A DNA stretch of 43,586 nucleotides from Microcaldota archaeon (GTDB lineage Archaea; Micrarchaeota; Micrarchaeia; Micrarchaeales; CABMGC01). Where the stretch lies: assembly GCA_027345185.1 (NCBI GenBank), contig DAHWIK010000022.1:1-43586 (forward strand), given 5' to 3'. The notes under the pieces are model-generated. The model was not told the origin of the DNA. It saw only the letters and a list, made by a program, of their open reading frames with translations, and did no database searches. The position numbers and the translations under genes are program-made. Shown here piece after piece: positions 4,332 through 33,101 of this stretch (position 1 is its first letter; the number at the start of each line of letters is the position of its first letter).

Positions 4332-5271
4332 GCAGTCTCTCCTTCTTCACTTCGTGTCCTCCAAATTCGTGCCTCAAAGACGCAATGACCCTCTTGCTGA
4401 ACTTCTTTGCGTCACGGGATTCGAAACGTTCGTACAGAGATGTGGTTATTGCACTGAAAGGTATATTGTAATCTACAGCCTCCTTGACCGACCACTTGCC
4501 CTCTCCTGTGTCTTCAACATACGGGGCTATCGAATCAAGATGAGGGTCTAGCTCCAGAGCTTTTGATGCGAGCTCAATTAGGTATCCGCGTATCACGGAT
4601 CCGTTGTTCCACAACTCGGTGAGTTTCTTGAGATTTATGTTCTTATATGGACCGTTCTCAACAAGGTCAAGACCCTCAGCTATAGACTGCATCATCCCGT
4701 ACTCTATGGCATTGTGAACCATCTTAGTGAAGTGACCTGTCCCGCTCTCTCCTGTGTAAAGGTATCCTTTGGGAACGCTTAAGTCCTTGAATATATGCTC
4801 TGACCTATTGAACGCATTCTTGTCTCCTCCGATCATTATCGACATTCCGTTCAGCGCGCCGCTAGGCCCTCCGCTGCACCCAGCGTCCAGATATGATATT
4901 CCCATCTTTGCAAGCTCTGCGTTTAGTATTACTGCGTCTTTGTAGTAAGAGTTTGAGCCATCTATTATCGTATCACCTTTCTTGCAATGTGAAGCAAGCT
5001 CACGTATTATGCTTACGGTGATATCCCCTGATGTCAGCATGACCCAAACGGTCCTTGGTCCCTTCAAGTATGCAGCAAGTTCCTTGACTGACTTGGCCTT
5101 CCTTGCGCCTTTTGAGGCAACATCGTTTAGAGGCCCCGTGGATCTGTTGTACGCAGTAACAGAATAGCCCTTACTTAGCATCTGCAAAGCAATATTCTTC
5201 CCCATCTTTCCTAGGCCGACGATCCCTATCTCTTTTCCTGCCACTAAATCCCCAGTACAGGATTGTATCAT
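4321..5271 (-). CDS. gnd: 6-phosphogluconate dehydrogenase (decarboxylating), short form
   Basis: IGIVGLGKMGKNIALQML, IIDGSNSYYKDA, YLDAGCSGGPSGA, KMVHNAIEYGMMQSIAEG. The true start may be internal (about 5241). Confidence 0.9.
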   Translation of the reverse strand: MIQSCTGDLVAGKEIGIVGLGKMGKNIALQMLSKGYSVTAYNRSTGPLNDVASKGARKAKSVKELAAYLKGPRTVWVMLTSGDITVSIIRELASHCKKGDTIIDGSNSYYKDAVILNAELAKMGISYLDAGCSGGPSGALNGMSIMIGGDKNAFNRSEHIFKDLSVPKGYLYTGESGTGHFTKMVHNAIEYGMMQSIAEGLDLVENGPYKNINLKKLTELWNNGSVIRGYLIELASKALELDPHLDSIAPYVEDTGEGKWSVKEAVDYNIPFSAITTSLYERFESRDAKKFSKRVIASLRHEFGGHEVKKERLHGI

Positions 5272-24496: not shown

Positions 24497-25516
24497 ATGC
24501 GCATAATAAGATTGAACGGAGTTACCAACTTCCTGAAACTTGAGCCGGACAACATAGACGACCTCTACCTTCTTGCAATGATAATATCGAAGAATGACGT
24601 GGTCGAGGCGCACAGCACCCGCAGGTTCAGGGCCCACGAAGGCGACAAGGGAGAGCAGAAGGACGTTACCATAAGGGTGAATGTTGAGAGGAGCGAGATA
24701 GACAAAAATGCAGGCATGCTGAGGGTTTCTGGAAAGATAGTATACGGGCACCCTGAGGAATATGTGACTATGGGGAGCTACCACACGCTCAACATAGCCG
24801 CAAGGGACATAATAGATGTACAGAAGCCCGAGTGGAAGGGCTATATAATTAAGCGGCTAAAGCAGGCAGTTGCCGATTCTAAGAAGCCGAGGCTGGGAGT
24901 CATAGTGCTTGATGATGAGAAGGCGCTTGTCTCCTACATAAAAGGCTATGGGATTGAGCCCGTGTCAGAGCTTTACAGCCGGCTGAGCAAGAGGATGAAG
25001 ATGAAGGACTTTGAGGCCAGGAAGGAGGAGTACTTCGGGGAGGTTGTAGCTGCTGTGGCGAATATGTCAGTTGATATAGTTGTTATAGCTGGACCGGGCT
25101 TTACAAAGGACGACATAAAGAAGTACATAGAAGATAAGGGAAAGGAGATAAAGAAGCAACTAGTCTACGCCTCAGCAAGCGATGCGGAAAGGTCTGGAAT
25201 ACGAGAGGTCATGCAGAGCACTGCAGTCACAAAGGTCCTGGAAAACGAACATGTCAAGAGGGAATTCGGATACATAAACAGGCTGCTGCTCGAGGTGCGC
25301 GCCGGAGTGGCTTCCTATGGTACGGATAGGCTGCTCGACTCGCTGGACAGGAAGGCAGTTTCCGCAGTGCTTGTCAATGACGACATAATAAACGATGAAA
25401 GGGTCAAGCTGGTGCTCGACAAGGCGGACAAGATGGGCATAAAGATAGAGATATTCAATTCGGATGACGATGCAGGACGGCAGCTGAAGAACTTCTCAGG
25501 CATAGCCGCAGTATAA
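24497..25516 (+). CDS. pelA: Pelota (mRNA surveillance factor aPelota)
   Basis: MRIIRLNGVTNFLKLEPDNIDDLYLLAMIISKNDVVEAHSTRRF, IVIAGPGFTKDDIKKYI. Confidence 0.95.
   Translation: MRIIRLNGVTNFLKLEPDNIDDLYLLAMIISKNDVVEAHSTRRFRAHEGDKGEQKDVTIRVNVERSEIDKNAGMLRVSGKIVYGHPEEYVTMGSYHTLNIAARDIIDVQKPEWKGYIIKRLKQAVADSKKPRLGVIVLDDEKALVSYIKGYGIEPVSELYSRLSKRMKMKDFEARKEEYFGEVVAAVANMSVDIVVIAGPGFTKDDIKKYIEDKGKEIKKQLVYASASDAERSGIREVMQSTAVTKVLENEHVKREFGYINRLLLEVRAGVASYGTDRLLDSLDRKAVSAVLVNDDIINDERVKLVLDKADKMGIKIEIFNSDDDAGRQLKNFSGIAAV
25310..25516 (+). repeat. Copy 1 of a 207-bp direct repeat (pelA 3' end)
   Basis: Matches 26968-27174 with 14 mismatches by eye, all in the 5' part; the final ~95 bp are identical. 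Confidence 0.95.
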
Positions 25517-25610
25517 CTTTGCAGGGATAGACGTTGGGAGATTTGCAGTAAATTGCTACCAATATTTTGATACCGTTTGTGGGATTTTGTATCTTTACAT
25601 TTATATAGCC

Positions 25611-26789
25611 CTACTGCTTCAAAGTAGATATCAGCTCGGAGATGTCCGTAAACTTTATGATGCAACTGCCGACTTTTATCCTTGATTTTAATCCTTCATT
25701 GAATACCACAAAGCCGCGCTTTGGGGCATATGTCGCTATGAACGAGTGCATGCTCCTCTCAACCTGACTTCCGTTTGCCTTTACTTTCACTTCGATAGGT
25801 ATTATTTCACTTCCTTTCTGGACTACGAAATCTACCTCGGCCCTGCCCTTTGTCTGCCAGTATCTTACATTCGCTCCTGATTTTATCAGCTCTGTGAGGA
25901 CATAGTTCTCAAACAGCTTCCCTTTTATTTCAGGGCTTATACTGAATTCGTTGGCTATGGCATTCCTCAATCCGGTGTCAATAAAATAAATTTTGGGCTG
26001 TTTCAAAACCTCTTTGAGCTTATTCCTGTAAAATGGTTGTATGCGAACTATCAAATAACTCTTTTCCATTGCATCCATGTATTTTTTAACTGATTGGAAA
26101 GACATTCCTAGATCATTGCATATATTGCCGTATATAACAACATTGCCGATGTAATGTGAAAGGTATGCGGATAATCTTTCCAGTGAACTTATGTCTTCTA
26201 TTTGGAAAGTCCTGGCCATATCTTTAAGTGTAATTGTTTCGGCAAGGCCCCTTAGAAGAAGTTCCTTGTCCTGTCTTTCTGGTTCAAGGACAACTTTTGG
26301 ATATCCCCCATATACCATATGCTCCTCAACGGCTCTAAGTTGTATTTTTTCTGTAACCTCTCTGATATTTTTTGTTGCAAGGAACTCTCCTAATGAAAAT
26401 GGGTAGATTCTTATTACCTCGGCCCTACCTACAAGCCATGAAAGAACCTCTTTACCCAGAGTCAATTGCGATGAGGACGTTACCCAGAGCCTCTTGCCAG
26501 AGTCAGCCAAATACTTTAGCTTCATTCCAGGATCTTTACCGTATTGGACTTCATCCAGTATGGTAACCGCTTCTCCACGAACATATTGATTCTCAAATCC
26601 CTTTATGTCTCTATCGAAAAGATCCTTTACATCTGGATCGTCAAAGGAAATGTACTGCGCTCCTACCTTTTTTGATTGCTCCTTTAGGAAAGTGGTCTTT
26701 CCGGCCTGTCGAGGCCCTACCACCACCACTATATTATTAAGCCTTGCAGCAGAATTGAATTGCTTGGTTATATCGCGGCTTATGTACAT
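25611..26789 (-). CDS. AAA ATPase with DUF4143-type C-terminus
   Basis: VVVVGPRQAGKTTFLKEQ, AVTILDEVQYGKDPG, C-terminal LFENYVLTELIKSGANVRYWQTKGRAEVDFVVQKGSEIIPIEVKVK. Confidence 0.92.
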   Translation of the reverse strand: MYISRDITKQFNSAARLNNIVVVVGPRQAGKTTFLKEQSKKVGAQYISFDDPDVKDLFDRDIKGFENQYVRGEAVTILDEVQYGKDPGMKLKYLADSGKRLWVTSSSQLTLGKEVLSWLVGRAEVIRIYPFSLGEFLATKNIREVTEKIQLRAVEEHMVYGGYPKVVLEPERQDKELLLRGLAETITLKDMARTFQIEDISSLERLSAYLSHYIGNVVIYGNICNDLGMSFQSVKKYMDAMEKSYLIVRIQPFYRNKLKEVLKQPKIYFIDTGLRNAIANEFSISPEIKGKLFENYVLTELIKSGANVRYWQTKGRAEVDFVVQKGSEIIPIEVKVKANGSQVERSMHSFIATYAPKRGFVVFNEGLKSRIKVGSCIIKFTDISELISTLKQ

Positions 26790-26967
26790 AATTCTAATTG
26801 TGGTTCTATATTTATATACTTTTCTACTTTTATTAACTTATAATTTAAGATTAGTACAACTAAAATTAACTTCAAATTTAGAATTAGTTTGGTATGTCTG
26901 TGCTTCTACTCTGTTGCACCAATTCCGATTATGGCGTCAGACGCGGCTCGGGAACGGCTAGGAGACA

Positions 26968-27174
26968 GCTTCCTACGGAACCGAAATGCTGCTCGCATCG
27001 TTGGACAGGAAGGCAGTTTCCGCAGTGCTTGTCAATGATGACATAATAAACGATGAACGAGTCAAGCATGTGCTCGACAAGGCAGACAAGATGGGCATAA
27101 AGATAGAGATATTCAATTCGGATGACGATGCAGGACGGCAGCTGAAGAACTTCTCAGGCATAGCCGCAGTATAA
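26968..27174 (+). pseudogene. Duplicated 3' remnant of pelA (copy 2 of the direct repeat)
   Basis: MLLASLDRKAVSAVLVNDDIINDERVKHVLDKADKMGIKIEIFNSDDDAGRQLKNFSGIAAV, nearly identical to the Pelota C-terminus. Confidence 0.93.
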
Positions 27175-27176
27175 GG

Positions 27177-30100
27177 TCAGGCTACAGATCCGAAGCTTAC
27201 TGAAGGCATTATCCCGCTTGGCGGGTAGTCGCGGGTGAGAAGCCACTGGAGATTTGCTATTGTAGATGCTGCTGTGGATGAATATATGTAGAAACCTAAA
27301 TATCCAGAAGTTAATGCTGTTGTTGAAACAGTTTCGGTAGTTCCGTCAAATGTTGCCGATAATCCACTTGGAGTTTGAATAAAACTATCAATTGAGGTAT
27401 ATTGAGATACATAGTTTAAATTACCATCAGCAATTGTTGTGCTACCTTCAATAATGCCTGGAGCTTCATTAGCAAGATTAAGTATTCTTGCCCAATAATT
27501 TGTTCCGACACCTCCCGTATTTTGGCTTGTTGATGTGCTGCTATCCAAGACTAAGCCCCATTGCTCGTTACTATTTGTGTCTGTGCTGACGCCATAATAA
27601 GTTTCGTCAGCTTCAAGTATTACAGGGGATGAAGTCTGTGAGGTTGTAAGGATATAAAAAGGTGTGCCTGTTGTGGTTGCTGCTACGCTTAATCCATTAT
27701 TTTGTGTAAGTGTCACTCCAGATATAGTAGAAATACGGCTATCTAATGTAGTTCCAGCAAAATTATAATAATTACTGAACACGCTCGCACCGTTGTCGTA
27801 TTCTGCATATGTTGAGCTGAGCTGCGGGGCTTCGCCAGTAGGACCAGAAGCAGACATCACGCTTGATGACATGAAGTTCATGTACAACGTAAGTGTGTTG
27901 CTTCCATAAGTGCCAGATATGCTTACCGGTATGCTAAGCCATACATTTGTAGTAGTAGATGCGTTGTACGCGCCGCTCTCGATCCATGCCTGGACAGGCA
28001 CCCCGCCCTGATATGCTGGAGAGCCTATTGTGAATTCAATGTTTGACCACTGAGAATTTATATAGGCAGCATAAGTGCTGGTAGGTACGGTAATCAGCTC
28101 CTGAAAGCCAGAAGGCAGTTGATTCTGAGTTGGATTGGTTATTGTTATGGGGACATATGCTTGTCCAAGCGGCGGATTAAGTGGTGGTGGAGGAGTATAG
28201 GTATTGCTGCCTGTGCCGAAGCTCACTGAAGGCATCACCCCGTTTGGAGGGTAGGCGCGGGTGCGGACGTATTGGAAGGTAGTAGAACCTGCAATATCAT
28301 CAATAAATAAGTCTATATATGCACTTCCGATTGTTGGCTGGGTGCTGGTGCCTCCCTGTTGAGTAGTTATATAATTCCAAAATGCTTCGTTGCTTCCAGT
28401 AGCTTGCCAACTTCCGCTCACTATTCCGGGGGTTGTTATTGCTGTACCCACATAGCCGGTGGGTACACCGTTGCTGATAGTTCTTATCTTTAATTTGCCA
28501 CCATTATAACCAAATCCAACGGTATTGATATTGCCCCATCCATCAGAACCCGATGTGCCTAATGATACTGCCCACTGAATATTCTGGTCTGCGCCTCCAC
28601 CTGATGTAGTTTGCAATGCTTCTACTATCTGCCCAACAGGATTATAGGTAGAGGTTGAATAGACGTGTTCATAGTAGCCTGCACCTCCTGTTGTTATAGT
28701 TAGGGTTATGCCATTTGAAACGGTGTAGGAGCCACCTGTGCCAGCAAGTTGATTGTTAAATGTCGAGGGCAATGTTGTTCCAGCGAAGCTCCAGTACTTC
28801 GTAAATACGCTCGCCCCGTTGTCATACTGGGCGTATGTGCTGCTGAGCTGCGGAGCCTCTCCTGTGGGGCCTGATGCAGACATGACGTTTGCAGCCATCA
28901 TGTCCATGTATATCGTGAGGCTGCCCTGCGCAGGCAGGCCGTTAGGGAGGTTGACCCAGACATTGGTCGCTGAAGCAGTATTGCTGGGGTTGCTCTCCAC
29001 CCAAGCCTGCAGTATTGTTCCAGTTGCCGACTTTCCAGTTGTAAATTCCACATTTGACCATTGTGAGTTTATGTACTGCGAGTATGTGCTGGATGGCACT
29101 GTTATGAGCTGCTGGAAGGGCGCAGGAGTGGCGCTTGCCTGCGAGTTGGTCAGCGTTATCGGCACATAGTAAAGTACCATCGTGTTGGTTGGGGTGAGAG
29201 CGCCCACTGTAGATGTCGTTTGGGCGTATGCCCTAGCGCGCATCCAGTTTATGTTTTCGTTCCACGGATAGCTTGATAAAGTGTCGCCAATCAAACCGAG
29301 ATACAAGTTTGTGGATGAGGAGAGGGGATTGACAGAGGGAGTGCCAGAATATCCTCCCGAGTATAGCTGCGGAGATATGTATCCAGTGTATGATGAAGCA
29401 TCACTGCCAAAATAAGTAGTGCTGCCATAATTCCAATTTGTGTTTGCAGTACCCTGCGGATTAAGATTGACACTGTGAGTTCCTCCTGAAAGATAGTCAT
29501 TAGTGAAATAGGTGGAGCCGAAACCCATATCTACAGATTGGGCATTGGTAATGCTGGTCGCTGTCGGATTGTTTACAATAGAAACATAACCCATATCCGA
29601 AGGGTTGTTCAAGTTCTGTGCATTGGTTTCTGCAATAATGGCCTCATTGGGCATTGCAGTAGCAAAAGACATTCCGTACCAAGAAACTGAACCGTATCCT
29701 GCAATGTTTATCGCAGATACGGTGCCAGACGCCGAACCAGGATAGGGAACACCTGTTGATTGTGATATTGTTATCCCGGAAGGTGCATTAAAGTTTGATA
29801 GGGAGGTGTCCCCATTGAAGTAAGATAAAAATACCAACGCGCCGTTGTCGTATTGGCCGTACGTTGGGCTGAGCTGCGGGGCCTCACCCGTATAGCTTGT
29901 GGTTGAAGACATAATGTTTGATGGCATAAAGTTCATGTACACAGTTACCGAACTGCTTGCAGGTATGGCTTTGGTCAGTTTGAGCCATACTACGGTAGAT
30001 GTGGCGGTGTTGGATGCGCCGCTCTCAACCCAAGCGTATATAGGGGTGCCTCCCGAGTATGCCGGTGAGTTGTAGGTGAACTCAACGTTCTGCCAACCGG

Positions 30101-30812
30101 AGTTTATCTCGTTTGCGCCATCATATGAAAAGCTCGGTATTGTTACCATAGCCTGGTACGGCGTTGGTGTCGGCGAGGTTCCGGAATTTGATATTGTTAT
30201 AGGAACGTAGTATGCAGGTACTGTTGTGGTTGACATGGAAGTCGGCGGAGGGCTTGCCGAGACTGTTGTTGCTGGCTGCTGGTTTGCATATATTATGAAT
30301 GTGCCCGTATAGTGCTCGGTCAGGAAACCACACTGGGCTGAAAATTTGCTTACTCCTGAGTTGCATGACTGAACGAATACGACGAATTGCCCCACGACCT
30401 CCTTCCCCACATGCACTGCGCCGTTGGGTATTGCTGCAGAGCATAGGGTGTTTCCCCCGGGGAAGACTATTGTATTTCCTGCAGGATAGGCGGTGTCATT
30501 GGTGCATGTGCCGTAGATCGGCGGACCGCTTACACCGCTTATAATCACATTCACACCGATCACATTGGCTGGCGAGCTTCCTGAATTTGACAGGTATATG
30601 AAGACGTTTGCGGTGTTGGTAATGGTGTTGGAATAGTATTGTATGTTGTAGCAGTCTATGCTTCCGTATGCGTTGCATGTAGATGGCTCTATCTGGGATG
30701 TCGGGGTGGCGAAATAGAATATTGTGATAAGCACTATTGCAGCCAAGGCTATCATGAATCCATAAGTGGTAAGCATCTCGAGCGCTGATTGAAGCCTTTT
30801 ATTGCTATTCAT
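27177..30812 (-). CDS. Large surface adhesin-like protein with three DUF2341-type repeats and a pilin-like N-terminus
   Basis: Start MNSNKRLQSALEMLTTYGFMIALAAIVLITIFYF. Three repeats of YVPITI..., QW.NVEF, YM.FM...VMS, TGEAPQLS.TY.QYDNGA.VF. Confidence 0.85.
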   Translation of the reverse strand: MNSNKRLQSALEMLTTYGFMIALAAIVLITIFYFATPTSQIEPSTCNAYGSIDCYNIQYYSNTITNTANVFIYLSNSGSSPANVIGVNVIISGVSGPPIYGTCTNDTAYPAGNTIVFPGGNTLCSAAIPNGAVHVGKEVVGQFVVFVQSCNSGVSKFSAQCGFLTEHYTGTFIIYANQQPATTVSASPPPTSMSTTTVPAYYVPITISNSGTSPTPTPYQAMVTIPSFSYDGANEINSGWQNVEFTYNSPAYSGGTPIYAWVESGASNTATSTVVWLKLTKAIPASSSVTVYMNFMPSNIMSSTTSYTGEAPQLSPTYGQYDNGALVFLSYFNGDTSLSNFNAPSGITISQSTGVPYPGSASGTVSAINIAGYGSVSWYGMSFATAMPNEAIIAETNAQNLNNPSDMGYVSIVNNPTATSITNAQSVDMGFGSTYFTNDYLSGGTHSVNLNPQGTANTNWNYGSTTYFGSDASSYTGYISPQLYSGGYSGTPSVNPLSSSTNLYLGLIGDTLSSYPWNENINWMRARAYAQTTSTVGALTPTNTMVLYYVPITLTNSQASATPAPFQQLITVPSSTYSQYINSQWSNVEFTTGKSATGTILQAWVESNPSNTASATNVWVNLPNGLPAQGSLTIYMDMMAANVMSASGPTGEAPQLSSTYAQYDNGASVFTKYWSFAGTTLPSTFNNQLAGTGGSYTVSNGITLTITTGGAGYYEHVYSTSTYNPVGQIVEALQTTSGGGADQNIQWAVSLGTSGSDGWGNINTVGFGYNGGKLKIRTISNGVPTGYVGTAITTPGIVSGSWQATGSNEAFWNYITTQQGGTSTQPTIGSAYIDLFIDDIAGSTTFQYVRTRAYPPNGVMPSVSFGTGSNTYTPPPPLNPPLGQAYVPITITNPTQNQLPSGFQELITVPTSTYAAYINSQWSNIEFTIGSPAYQGGVPVQAWIESGAYNASTTTNVWLSIPVSISGTYGSNTLTLYMNFMSSSVMSASGPTGEAPQLSSTYAEYDNGASVFSNYYNFAGTTLDSRISTISGVTLTQNNGLSVAATTTGTPFYILTTSQTSSPVILEADETYYGVSTDTNSNEQWGLVLDSSTSTSQNTGGVGTNYWARILNLANEAPGIIEGSTTIADGNLNYVSQYTSIDSFIQTPSGLSATFDGTTETVSTTALTSGYLGFYIYSSTAASTIANLQWLLTRDYPPSGIMPSVSFGSVA

Positions 30813-30863
30813 CCAATTAGCCACTATATAATGGACGGGATTAAATTTAATTAAGTTGCGTGT

Positions 30864-31664
30864 ATGTACAACTTTGTCGGATTGCGAAGCAAAAAGAGGC
30901 TTGGTCAGGTATTCCTTGTTAACGAAAAGGTGGCGAGCATTGAGGCAGCACACGCCACTGGAAAGACTGTCCTTGAGATAGGACCTGGACCTGGAATCCT
31001 TACACGCGCGCTGTGCAATGAGGCAAGGAAGGTCATTGCAGTTGAAAAGGACTTCAGGATCTACAGCATGCTTAAGCATGAACGGATAGCAAGGAACCTT
31101 GTGCTTATAAACAAGGACTTCCTTGATGCCACAGACTCTGAGATAGGCCTGAACAAGATAGACATAGTCATAGCGAACATACCGTATTACCTGTCAAGCA
31201 GCGTCATAGGATGGCTTTCAGAGAAGCACATGCAGGCCGTGCTATGCCTGCAGAAGGAGTTCGTCGAGCATATGCTTGCACCTCCCAACACGCGCAGCTA
31301 CTCAAAGCTTAGCGTTATCACGGCCCTGCTTTTCAGGGTCACAAAGATAATAAGCGTGCCTAAGGGAAACTTCAGGCCCATGCCCAAAGTCGACTCTGTA
31401 GTAATATATATTAAGCCCATAAGGGAACCGCTGGCTGAAAGGGAAGCAGAGCTTATAGGGCTGATCATGCAGCACAAAAAGAAGACTGTCAGGAACGCCA
31501 TAATTGACTCCAGGTCTCGATTTAATTTTGGCAGGGATGAGCTGGCCAGGATTGCGGAGAAGGTATCGCATAGCGAGCAGCGGGTGTTCAAGCTGGAGCC
31601 TGCGGAGATATTCAAGATCGCAAAAGAGCTTGAATCATTTCTAGATAACTACAATAAATATTAG
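30864..31664 (+). CDS. ksgA: rRNA adenine dimethyltransferase KsgA/Dim1
   Basis: SKKRLGQVFLVNEKV, VLEIGPGPGILTRAL, IVIANIPYYLSSSVI. Confidence 0.95.
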   Translation: MYNFVGLRSKKRLGQVFLVNEKVASIEAAHATGKTVLEIGPGPGILTRALCNEARKVIAVEKDFRIYSMLKHERIARNLVLINKDFLDATDSEIGLNKIDIVIANIPYYLSSSVIGWLSEKHMQAVLCLQKEFVEHMLAPPNTRSYSKLSVITALLFRVTKIISVPKGNFRPMPKVDSVVIYIKPIREPLAEREAELIGLIMQHKKKTVRNAIIDSRSRFNFGRDELARIAEKVSHSEQRVFKLEPAEIFKIAKELESFLDNYNKY

Positions 31665-31672
31665 TCCTAGTT

Positions 31673-32437
31673 TCAAGATTGCTTGATTGCACCTATCACA
31701 TATTCCCCTATTGCTTTAAAATCAGGTACGGTCTTCATCAGGACCGATAATTCGCTGTCCCACACATCTTTCAGCGATTTGACATTTCTTACGAATTCGG
31801 ACTTCGAGAATTTTTTATTATGATATTCCAGCTTTTTATTTATATATTCGGCATTGATTGATGCGCCCTTATGCAAGAGAAAGTAGAGGTCATACAGGTC
31901 TCTTGCCTTTTGCCTAGTAAGAATGGTGCGCATTTTCTCGGCAAGCATCTCGTCAAGGGACATGACGTTTGAAAAATACGGACTTATGTCTTTGAATATT
32001 GGGGTGATGAGCAAAACGTCCGGCTTCTTGATTATTTCCTCCCTGGTGCTTATCTCAACCAGTATTGTTTGTGTGGATTGGGGCCTCACGAATAGAGGGC
32101 CTTCGATTTTGAGCTTGTACGTTACGCAGATGTCCTTTATCTCTTTTTTATATTCAGACCTGTAGAAACTATTTATACCATTAAGACCACGCTCTATGCG
32201 TTCAAATACGCCGCTGCCGGCCTCCTTAATCTGATCTGAATTGGCGGTAAAGTCCAAGTCCTCTGAGAATCTGTTCAGAGCGTATGCCTTCTGGAGAGCA
32301 GTACCTCCCTTGAAAACAAGTTCGCTTGATACATTGGCATATATTTGGAACAAAACTATGTGCTGCAGGTAGTCCTTCTCTACCTGATATCTGTTGTACT
32401 GACCCACATACTCCAATATCTCGTCTCTTCTAAGCAT
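31673..32437 (-). CDS. AbiEii-type nucleotidyltransferase toxin
   Basis: VFKGGTALQKAYALNRFSEDLDFTA, LDEMLAEKMRTILTRQKARDLYDLYFLL. Confidence 0.92.
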   Translation of the reverse strand: MLRRDEILEYVGQYNRYQVEKDYLQHIVLFQIYANVSSELVFKGGTALQKAYALNRFSEDLDFTANSDQIKEAGSGVFERIERGLNGINSFYRSEYKKEIKDICVTYKLKIEGPLFVRPQSTQTILVEISTREEIIKKPDVLLITPIFKDISPYFSNVMSLDEMLAEKMRTILTRQKARDLYDLYFLLHKGASINAEYINKKLEYHNKKFSKSEFVRNVKSLKDVWDSELSVLMKTVPDFKAIGEYVIGAIKQS

Positions 32438-33101
32438 GTTTTACCCTCCATTTTGTATTTATTTTTTTTCCTGGTGAAATAACTGCGTATCGCGATGACC
32501 GGTGTGTGATGAGGCTACTTGCATCAAAGCCGGAAGATTCAAGCAAAAAACCAAGCTTGTTTATCAGGATCTTGGAATCCATGTTTATAGCATAGCTCTT
32601 AAGCTTTTCGATATCTGCATCTTCGATATTCTTGAAAGCCTCGGCAACATAAGAGTAATCCAAACCTTCATACAAGGAGTCTATGATGGCCTTCTCTGGG
32701 CATGCTACGTTGGCGCCATCGTCATTTTTATAACCGAAAACACGGTTCCTAGAAAATTTTATGAATTTTATTGAATATCCGTCAAAATTGATCACTTTGT
32801 GCTGCCTCGTGGCTACCACGTATACGACATTGGGCATCTGCGTGACAAGGTTATAATAACGGAGTGCGGATAGAAGACTTACGTATGACGGGTATATTAT
32901 ATTTGATGCAATGACGTAGATGCTTGCCTCCTTGAGGCAGTACTTGCCGCGCTCTATGCGCTTAAACATCTTATTTTTTGATAATAACAGGGAGAGGTAT
33001 TTTCTTGGTTTGCCAGTAATTTTGGCAATATCTTTTAGAGTGAACACGCTTTTGTTATAATTTTGCAGTATCTCTGCAATTTCCAAGCCCCTCATGAACA
33101 T
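32430..33101 (-). CDS. AbiEi-type HTH antitoxin
   Basis: N-terminal wHTH (FTLKDIAKITGKPRKYLSLLLSKNKMFKRIERGKYCL), overlaps the AbiEii ORF, YVVATRQHKVINFDGYSIKFIKF, CPEKAIIDSLY. Confidence 0.87.
   Translation of the reverse strand: MFMRGLEIAEILQNYNKSVFTLKDIAKITGKPRKYLSLLLSKNKMFKRIERGKYCLKEASIYVIASNIIYPSYVSLLSALRYYNLVTQMPNVVYVVATRQHKVINFDGYSIKFIKFSRNRVFGYKNDDGANVACPEKAIIDSLYEGLDYSYVAEAFKNIEDADIEKLKSYAINMDSKILINKLGFLLESSGFDASSLITHRSSRYAVISPGKKINTKWRVKHA

Follow-up and report, generated by a model that had tools for sequence, protein, structure and literature searches.

A DUF4143 ATPase cassette with its own pelA tail in a micrarchaeal genome, and similar cassettes at the 3′ ends of tRNA and protein genes

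In the 43,586-nucleotide contig DAHWIK010000022.1 of a Microcaldota archaeon (assembly GCA_027345185.1; this whole stretch is referred to below as the window), the intact gene pelA, coding for Pelota, is followed by a DUF4143 ATPase gene and then by a second copy of the pelA 3′ end. This arrangement very probably results from the integration at pelA of a small cassette that carried its own pelA tail. Cassettes of the same anatomy, holding either a DUF4143 ATPase gene or an AbiE toxin-antitoxin (TA) pair and no integrase, recur in related genomes at the 3′ ends of tRNA and protein genes. We give the complete account that we favour, a mobile tail-carrying cassette integrated in Campbell fashion by a recombinase supplied in trans, a probability of roughly 0.6.

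A second pelA tail lies beyond the ATPase gene

The last 207 bp of pelA are repeated directly at an offset of 1658 bp with 14 mismatches (Table 1). All 14 mismatches fall within 25318-25426, leaving a terminal run of 90 identical bp that has a P of 1.6e-4 if the mismatches are scattered at random. The repeat is the strongest of the region, the similarity of the two tails ends abruptly past both repeat ends, and no third copy of the tail was found in the source genome, a 923-kb draft in 49 contigs with 83% completeness in which the window is contig 32. The original prediction, made from the letters of the window, had described this repeat; we recovered its coordinates, length, spacing and number of mismatches exactly, together with the DUF4143 ATPase gene between the copies and an intact pelA whose product retains its full length and all three eRF1 domains according to Pfam. 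The mismatches do lie toward the 5′ side as it stated, but the identical end, put at about 95 bp, measures 90 bp.

The reading frame of copy 2 remains open for 69 codons and terminates at the same stop codon as pelA. The two copies differ by 9 synonymous and 5 non-synonymous changes, corresponding to a ratio of non-synonymous to synonymous changes per site (pN/pS) of 0.17; E, M, A and H are among the residues that set the copy 2 tail apart. Since a promoterless and startless copy is expected to decay neutrally, the divergence of copy 2 arose in a working pelA before its arrival, and the mostly synonymous differences identify it as an imported functional allele and not a decaying duplicate. The 5′ part of copy 2 comes from a donor allele and its 3′ part presumably from the native gene. 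A crossover between non-identical alleles, which had been proposed for this locus, is thus supported by the succession of these changes and 90 identical bp.

Comparison with relatives revealed the empty site (G numbers designate the genomes of relatives, G000 being the window's own genome, and L numbers designate fetched loci). In the congeners G005 and G010, a convergent gene coding for a DUF2341 protein lies approximately 25-40 bp past the pelA stop codon with no ATPase gene between, and in G003 pelA is likewise followed by a convergent DUF2341-type gene without the ATPase. In the window, the DUF2341 gene starts 2 bp beyond the second pelA tail. The adjacency of pelA and the DUF2341 gene in congeners therefore indicates that the unit running from tail to tail was inserted between two ancestral neighbours. 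This agrees with the proposal of an inserted segment bringing its own pelA tail and preserving its target, and with the explicit expectation that relatives lacking the ATPase would have pelA directly beside the DUF2341 gene.

Table 1. Features of the pelA locus, in window coordinates
Feature	Coordinates	Strand	Evidence
pelA (Pelota, 339 aa), intact target gene	24497..25516	+	Pfam eRF1_1/2/3; orthologues in 56/60 relatives
Repeat copy 1, intact pelA 3′ end, attL-like	25310..25516	+	207-bp direct repeat, 93%
90-bp identical block, copy 1; putative crossover zone	25427..25516	+	Last mismatch at 25426
Inserted cassette, 1658 bp: ATPase gene and donor pelA tail	25517..27174	.	Repeat spacing; empty site in congeners; phase of limits arbitrary inside the identical block
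AAA_14/DUF4143 ATPase with PD-(D/E)XK-like nuclease domain, 392 aa, cargo	25611..26789	-	Pfam; PADLOC PDC-S01; invariant residues; structure model
Repeat copy 2, promoterless pelA tail, attR-like	26968..27174	+	Direct repeat; pN/pS 0.17
90-bp identical block, copy 2	27085..27174	+	Alignment with copy 1
DUF2341 surface-type protein gene, native pelA neighbour	27177..31079	-	Pfam DUF2341; adjoins pelA in G005 and G010

Tail-carrying cassettes recur at the 3′ ends of tRNA and protein genes

We then surveyed DUF4143 genes for direct repeats (minimum score 35 bits) that span the gene and lie within 2 kb on each side, using as controls other genes situated in the same loci but away from the cassettes. 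Within this Micrarchaeota family, 38 of the 74 DUF4143 genes were spanned by such a repeat compared to none of 152 controls (Fisher P = 8e-23), and in the rest of the phylum the counts were 13 of 42 and 2 of 163. An unbiased scan of the DUF4143 loci uncovered further repeat-bounded intervals, many of which contain a pair of genes coding for proteins of about 200 and 250 aa that we identified as AbiEi/AbiEii type IV TA systems. When AbiE loci of the family with no DUF4143 gene nearby were surveyed, 16 of 39 proved to be spanned by a repeat against 0 of 299 controls (P = 4e-17). Because the controls come from the same loci, the counts alone leave some room for repeats being generally more frequent in accessory islands, a possibility that is better excluded by the identity of the tails, their polarity and the shared ends of the cassettes.

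In 15 cases of the family, what is repeated is the 3′ portion of a tRNA gene (Leu, Pro, Val, Arg, Ala, Glu, Phe, Cys or Gly); in each of the 15, the tRNA has its 3′ end toward the cassette. Among the tRNAs in the loci that we read, 36 of 74 have a tail copy, nearly always on their 3′ side. The original prediction had likened the pelA locus to integration at tRNA 3′ ends; this analogy is stronger than could be known at that stage, since related cassettes carrying an ATPase of this family are located at genuine tRNA 3′ ends. Other repeats are the 3′ ends of protein genes, namely pelA, hjc and the genes for GTP cyclohydrolase II, AdoMet synthetase, an OGG-type glycosylase, a ParA-type ATPase, an aminoacyl-tRNA synthetase, a PEP-utilising enzyme and LamG surface proteins. 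Across 15 coding tails, the encoded C-termini are nearly the same, with 88.5 synonymous and 73.5 non-synonymous changes (pN/pS 0.24). The tail that a cassette introduces into a conserved gene is foreign, so that the C-terminus of the host protein is slightly rewritten with every insertion. Tail lengths range from 21 to 415 bp, many tRNA tails being just 24-35 bp long and exact to the tRNA 3′ end. One of the two repeat copies lies near the stop codon of the cargo gene, with a median gap of 28 bp versus 172 bp on the other side.

AbiE cassettes favour tRNA-Leu (L163, L166, L176, L182 and L114), where two subfamilies use opposite orientations. At L137 (8431-12007), a DUF4143 gene is followed in tandem by an AbiE pair or the reverse, and one 60-bp repeat recurs between the two as well as next to them. 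Repeat-bounded intervals at L132 (10411-11718) and L080 (4055-5441) hold an endonuclease/exonuclease/phosphatase protein and a methyltransferase, suggesting that other cargo may travel likewise.

Near-identical cassettes occur in different genera and form arrays at tRNA-Asn

ATPases that are 88-98% identical were found in different genera whose pelA proteins are far less alike. When the surroundings of these near-identical cassettes were aligned, the limits of the similarity coincided with the repeats and, in several pairs, fell on the same base, demonstrating that the cassettes move between genera as units bounded by their repeats.

Arrays of DUF4143 cassettes occupy a tRNA-Asn site in G034, G094, G095 and G096, and in G097 an integrase gene lies about 0.5 kb downstream of this site. 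A hairpin repeat common to six loci consists of the tRNA-Asn 3′ end and an added arm resembling that of a phage attachment (attP) site. In the arrays, full sites separate the tandem cassettes and a 22-bp half-site is found at the tRNA itself. The arms, GCGCATC and GATGCGC, form an inverted repeat around a fixed breakpoint, an arrangement usual for tyrosine recombinases. At pelA, nothing shorter than the 90-bp identical block could be delimited as crossover core; core and inverted arms were seen at the tRNA-Asn sites. Two other interpretations of the arrays were discarded. They are not integron-type arrays built on one common site, as the shared hairpin repeat is the tRNA-Asn 3′ end with its attP-like arm, and the neighbouring genes coding for proteins of 400-440 aa are not integrases, as they code for a citrate transporter, a Na/H exchanger, a beta-helix protein and one unknown protein.

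A proposed recombinase acting in trans and rival explanations

The pelA cassette codes for no integrase of its own, and an integrase was present in 4 of approximately 180 surveyed loci. The window's genome contains six genes for PF00589 tyrosine recombinases, five of which lie beside tRNAs and one of which overlaps tRNA-Asn. Cassettes without integrase, PF00589 genes beside tRNAs and the integrase found at tRNA-Asn in G097 together favour a recombinase supplied in trans, and we incline slightly toward a trans-acting tyrosine recombinase as the enzyme that moves the cassettes. On contig 17 of the window's genome (L231), a tyrosine recombinase open reading frame (ORF; 1405-2364) starts inside a tRNA-Asn gene (2306-2379).

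According to the account that we favour, the cassette would have been composed of the DUF4143 ATPase gene and a piece of the pelA 3′ end from another, related lineage. In circular form, it would have undergone a single recombination event with the chromosome, located in the final 90 bp of pelA, as in Campbell-type integration. The resident pelA would have kept its 5′ part and taken over the equivalent 3′ part from the cassette, thereby remaining intact, and the displaced tail, its 5′ part derived from the donor, would have ended up beyond the ATPase gene. The recombinase, probably a tyrosine recombinase, would have come in trans from other elements present in the cell.

Several observations weigh against this account. 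No PF00589 match was found in the cassette-bearing drafts G028, G029, G082, G020 and G026, which are incomplete, and no recombinase acting on pelA is known here. The 207-bp pelA tail exceeds the normal length of an attachment (att) site, and long tails of this kind could serve as substrates for homologous recombination. No repeat was detectable around 36 of the 74 DUF4143 genes of the family, perhaps because their tails are short or have decayed. Finally, in a nucleotide-level test for an empty site at L202, the flank proved not to be conserved within its genus. In the corresponding composite for L131, the distal flank is a multi-copy repeat, probably the end of an insertion sequence (IS), and both composites were set aside.

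The first of these points bear on an explanation that we consider unlikely, yet the most serious of the competitors, in which the gene tail is portable homology: a circle would enter and leave through the tail by means of the cell's own homologous recombination, and its TA or defence cargo would secure its retention. In its favour, tails come from any type of gene and range from 21 to 415 bp, several cassette-bearing genomes have no integrase match, and specificity tracks the tail that is carried, AbiE cassettes sitting at tRNA-Leu and others at protein genes. However, the many tRNA tails of 24-35 bp are short for homologous recombination, and the inverted arms and fixed breakpoint at tRNA-Asn are typical of a tyrosine recombinase.

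The pelA locus taken alone could also be explained by a single import, in which linear donor DNA containing a pelA allele and the ATPase gene joined the chromosome homologously in pelA and illegitimately on the other side, leaving the native tail behind. Such an event accounts for the diverged second tail and for the crossover, but it leaves unexplained the dozens of cassettes with the same anatomy, 3′-end polarity and sharp conserved ends, and the survey makes it very unlikely.

We likewise find it hard to maintain that the DUF4143 protein, with its AAA+ ATPase and nuclease domains, acts as the recombinase in a transposable element of a single gene. It is the sole gene in many units and its Walker and nuclease residues are invariant, but AbiE cassettes share the anatomy without any DUF4143 gene, even in G013, a 97% complete genome devoid of DUF4143 genes in which an AbiE unit is flanked by repeats that are 98% identical, and structurally it is matched by STAND/AAA+ ATPases such as Sso1545, not by a recombinase. 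We therefore rejected this candidate.

A local or target-site duplication, with copy 2 made from the resident pelA at insertion and decayed since, would provide long direct repeats on both sides of an insertion but is scarcely credible, as decay predicts a pN/pS near 1, far from the values obtained here and over the 15 coding tails, and as the mismatches are limited to the 5′ part of the tail. The duplications left by transposons are short, identical and of local origin, unlike the diverged pelA tail. An assembly or binning artefact, conceivable for a fragmented draft such as ours, is effectively dismissed, since single-contig and three-contig genomes (G048, G040) show the same anatomy, as do many independent assemblies.

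Comparison with known mobile elements

It is well known that elements integrate at the 3′ ends of tRNA and other genes and restore the target, and those described from archaea encode an integrase (PMC4158269). The cassettes share with these elements, which use tyrosine integrases, the direct repeat of the target 3′ end, the intact target, the 3′-end polarity, tandem accretion and, at the tRNA-Asn site, inverted arms. Known integrative elements usually contain an integrase and many genes, whereas the cassettes measure 1.4-1.9 kb and consist of one ATPase gene or an AbiE pair without integrase; several of their targets are, also unlike the usual case, housekeeping protein genes with long tails.

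The dif (pdif) modules of Acinetobacter plasmids are small, often contain TA genes, and are moved by XerC/XerD in trans without a recombinase of their own (PMC13141974, PMC12907356). Small size, frequent TA content and the absence of a recombinase are common to these modules and to the cassettes. The dif modules rely on one common XerC/D site, found in alternating orientation, whereas the direct repeats described here differ with the target gene and the boundaries are target-gene tails.

Integron cassettes are one- or two-gene units with a recombination site near the stop codon, assembled in arrays by a recombinase acting in trans. All of these traits have a counterpart here, the trans-acting recombinase as a proposal, but a common attC-like site does not, the sites being host-gene 3′ ends that vary with the target, and no integron integrase was found, the PF00589 genes being recognised at the level of the family. 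Phage satellites such as P4-type islands and phage-inducible chromosomal islands (PICI) also occupy attachment sites and use functions that others supply in trans; they differ in possessing their own integrase and regulators and in being much larger.

The cargo belongs to known families, the AAA_14/DUF4143 ATPases (PDC-S01) and the AbiE type IV TA systems. We found no paper linking DUF4143 or AbiE to gene-tail cassettes, DUF4143 being named in a single paper of the collection searched, and none joining DUF4143, integrase and archaea. Nor did we find a description of integrase-less one- or two-gene defence or TA cassettes with tRNA or housekeeping tails in archaea, a weak negative given that most subscription journals and bioRxiv were not covered. 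We rate as evenly balanced the possibility that the Micrarchaeota harbour a separate cassette system, different from both integrons and dif modules, in which one- or two-gene defence and TA modules use the tail of a tRNA or housekeeping gene as a portable address, rely on recombinases in trans, move between genera and accumulate in tandem arrays.

These results offer an anatomy and a testable route for the spread of single defence or TA modules among archaea with tiny genomes and few visible mobile elements. They name two cargo families that travel as units, DUF4143 ATPases and AbiE, and explain why both are sited beside tRNAs and conserved genes. A gene tail beside the stop codon of a module provides a signature for finding other cargo.

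Cargo and neighbouring genes

Besides short overlapping ORFs, the ATPase gene is the only substantial ORF of the pelA cassette. Pfam and PADLOC profiles and active-site residues all assign its product to AAA_14/DUF4143 (PDC-S01); Walker A, Walker B and two residues of the PD-(D/E)XK-like nuclease motif are invariant among 36 homologues. The predicted structure (predicted local distance difference test score, pLDDT, 92) is similar to Sso1545, an archaeal ATPase, and to further AAA+/STAND proteins but not to recombinases, and no solved structure matched the protein by sequence. Judging from these sequence features, the cargo is a putative defence-type ATPase close to the PADLOC family PDC-S01, which is itself a candidate system only. 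Close relatives of the ATPase were absent from viral contigs, and a search of plasmids returned only distant homologues with less than 30% identity. The number of DUF4143 genes varies among congeners, from none in five of them to 9 to 11 in G011 (counted as search matches). At L071, the congeneric ATPase gene most closely related to that of the window has two adjacent paralogous genes beside it (4444-4683 and 4880-5116); these code for proteins of 94-99 aa and are 84% alike in DNA.

An AbiEii/AbiEi TA pair is also encoded in the window at 31673-33101 on the minus strand, four kb from the ATPase gene; no flanking repeat was found around it. In G007, a close relative, the contig stops 128 bp past pelA in a hairpin, CCCACGCCTAAAGGCGTGGG (L010, 7021-7148), that resembles an IS200/IS605 end, so that another insertion may be present there at this site. 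Within the DUF2341 gene of the window (27190-29961), diverged repeats recur about every 1026 bp.
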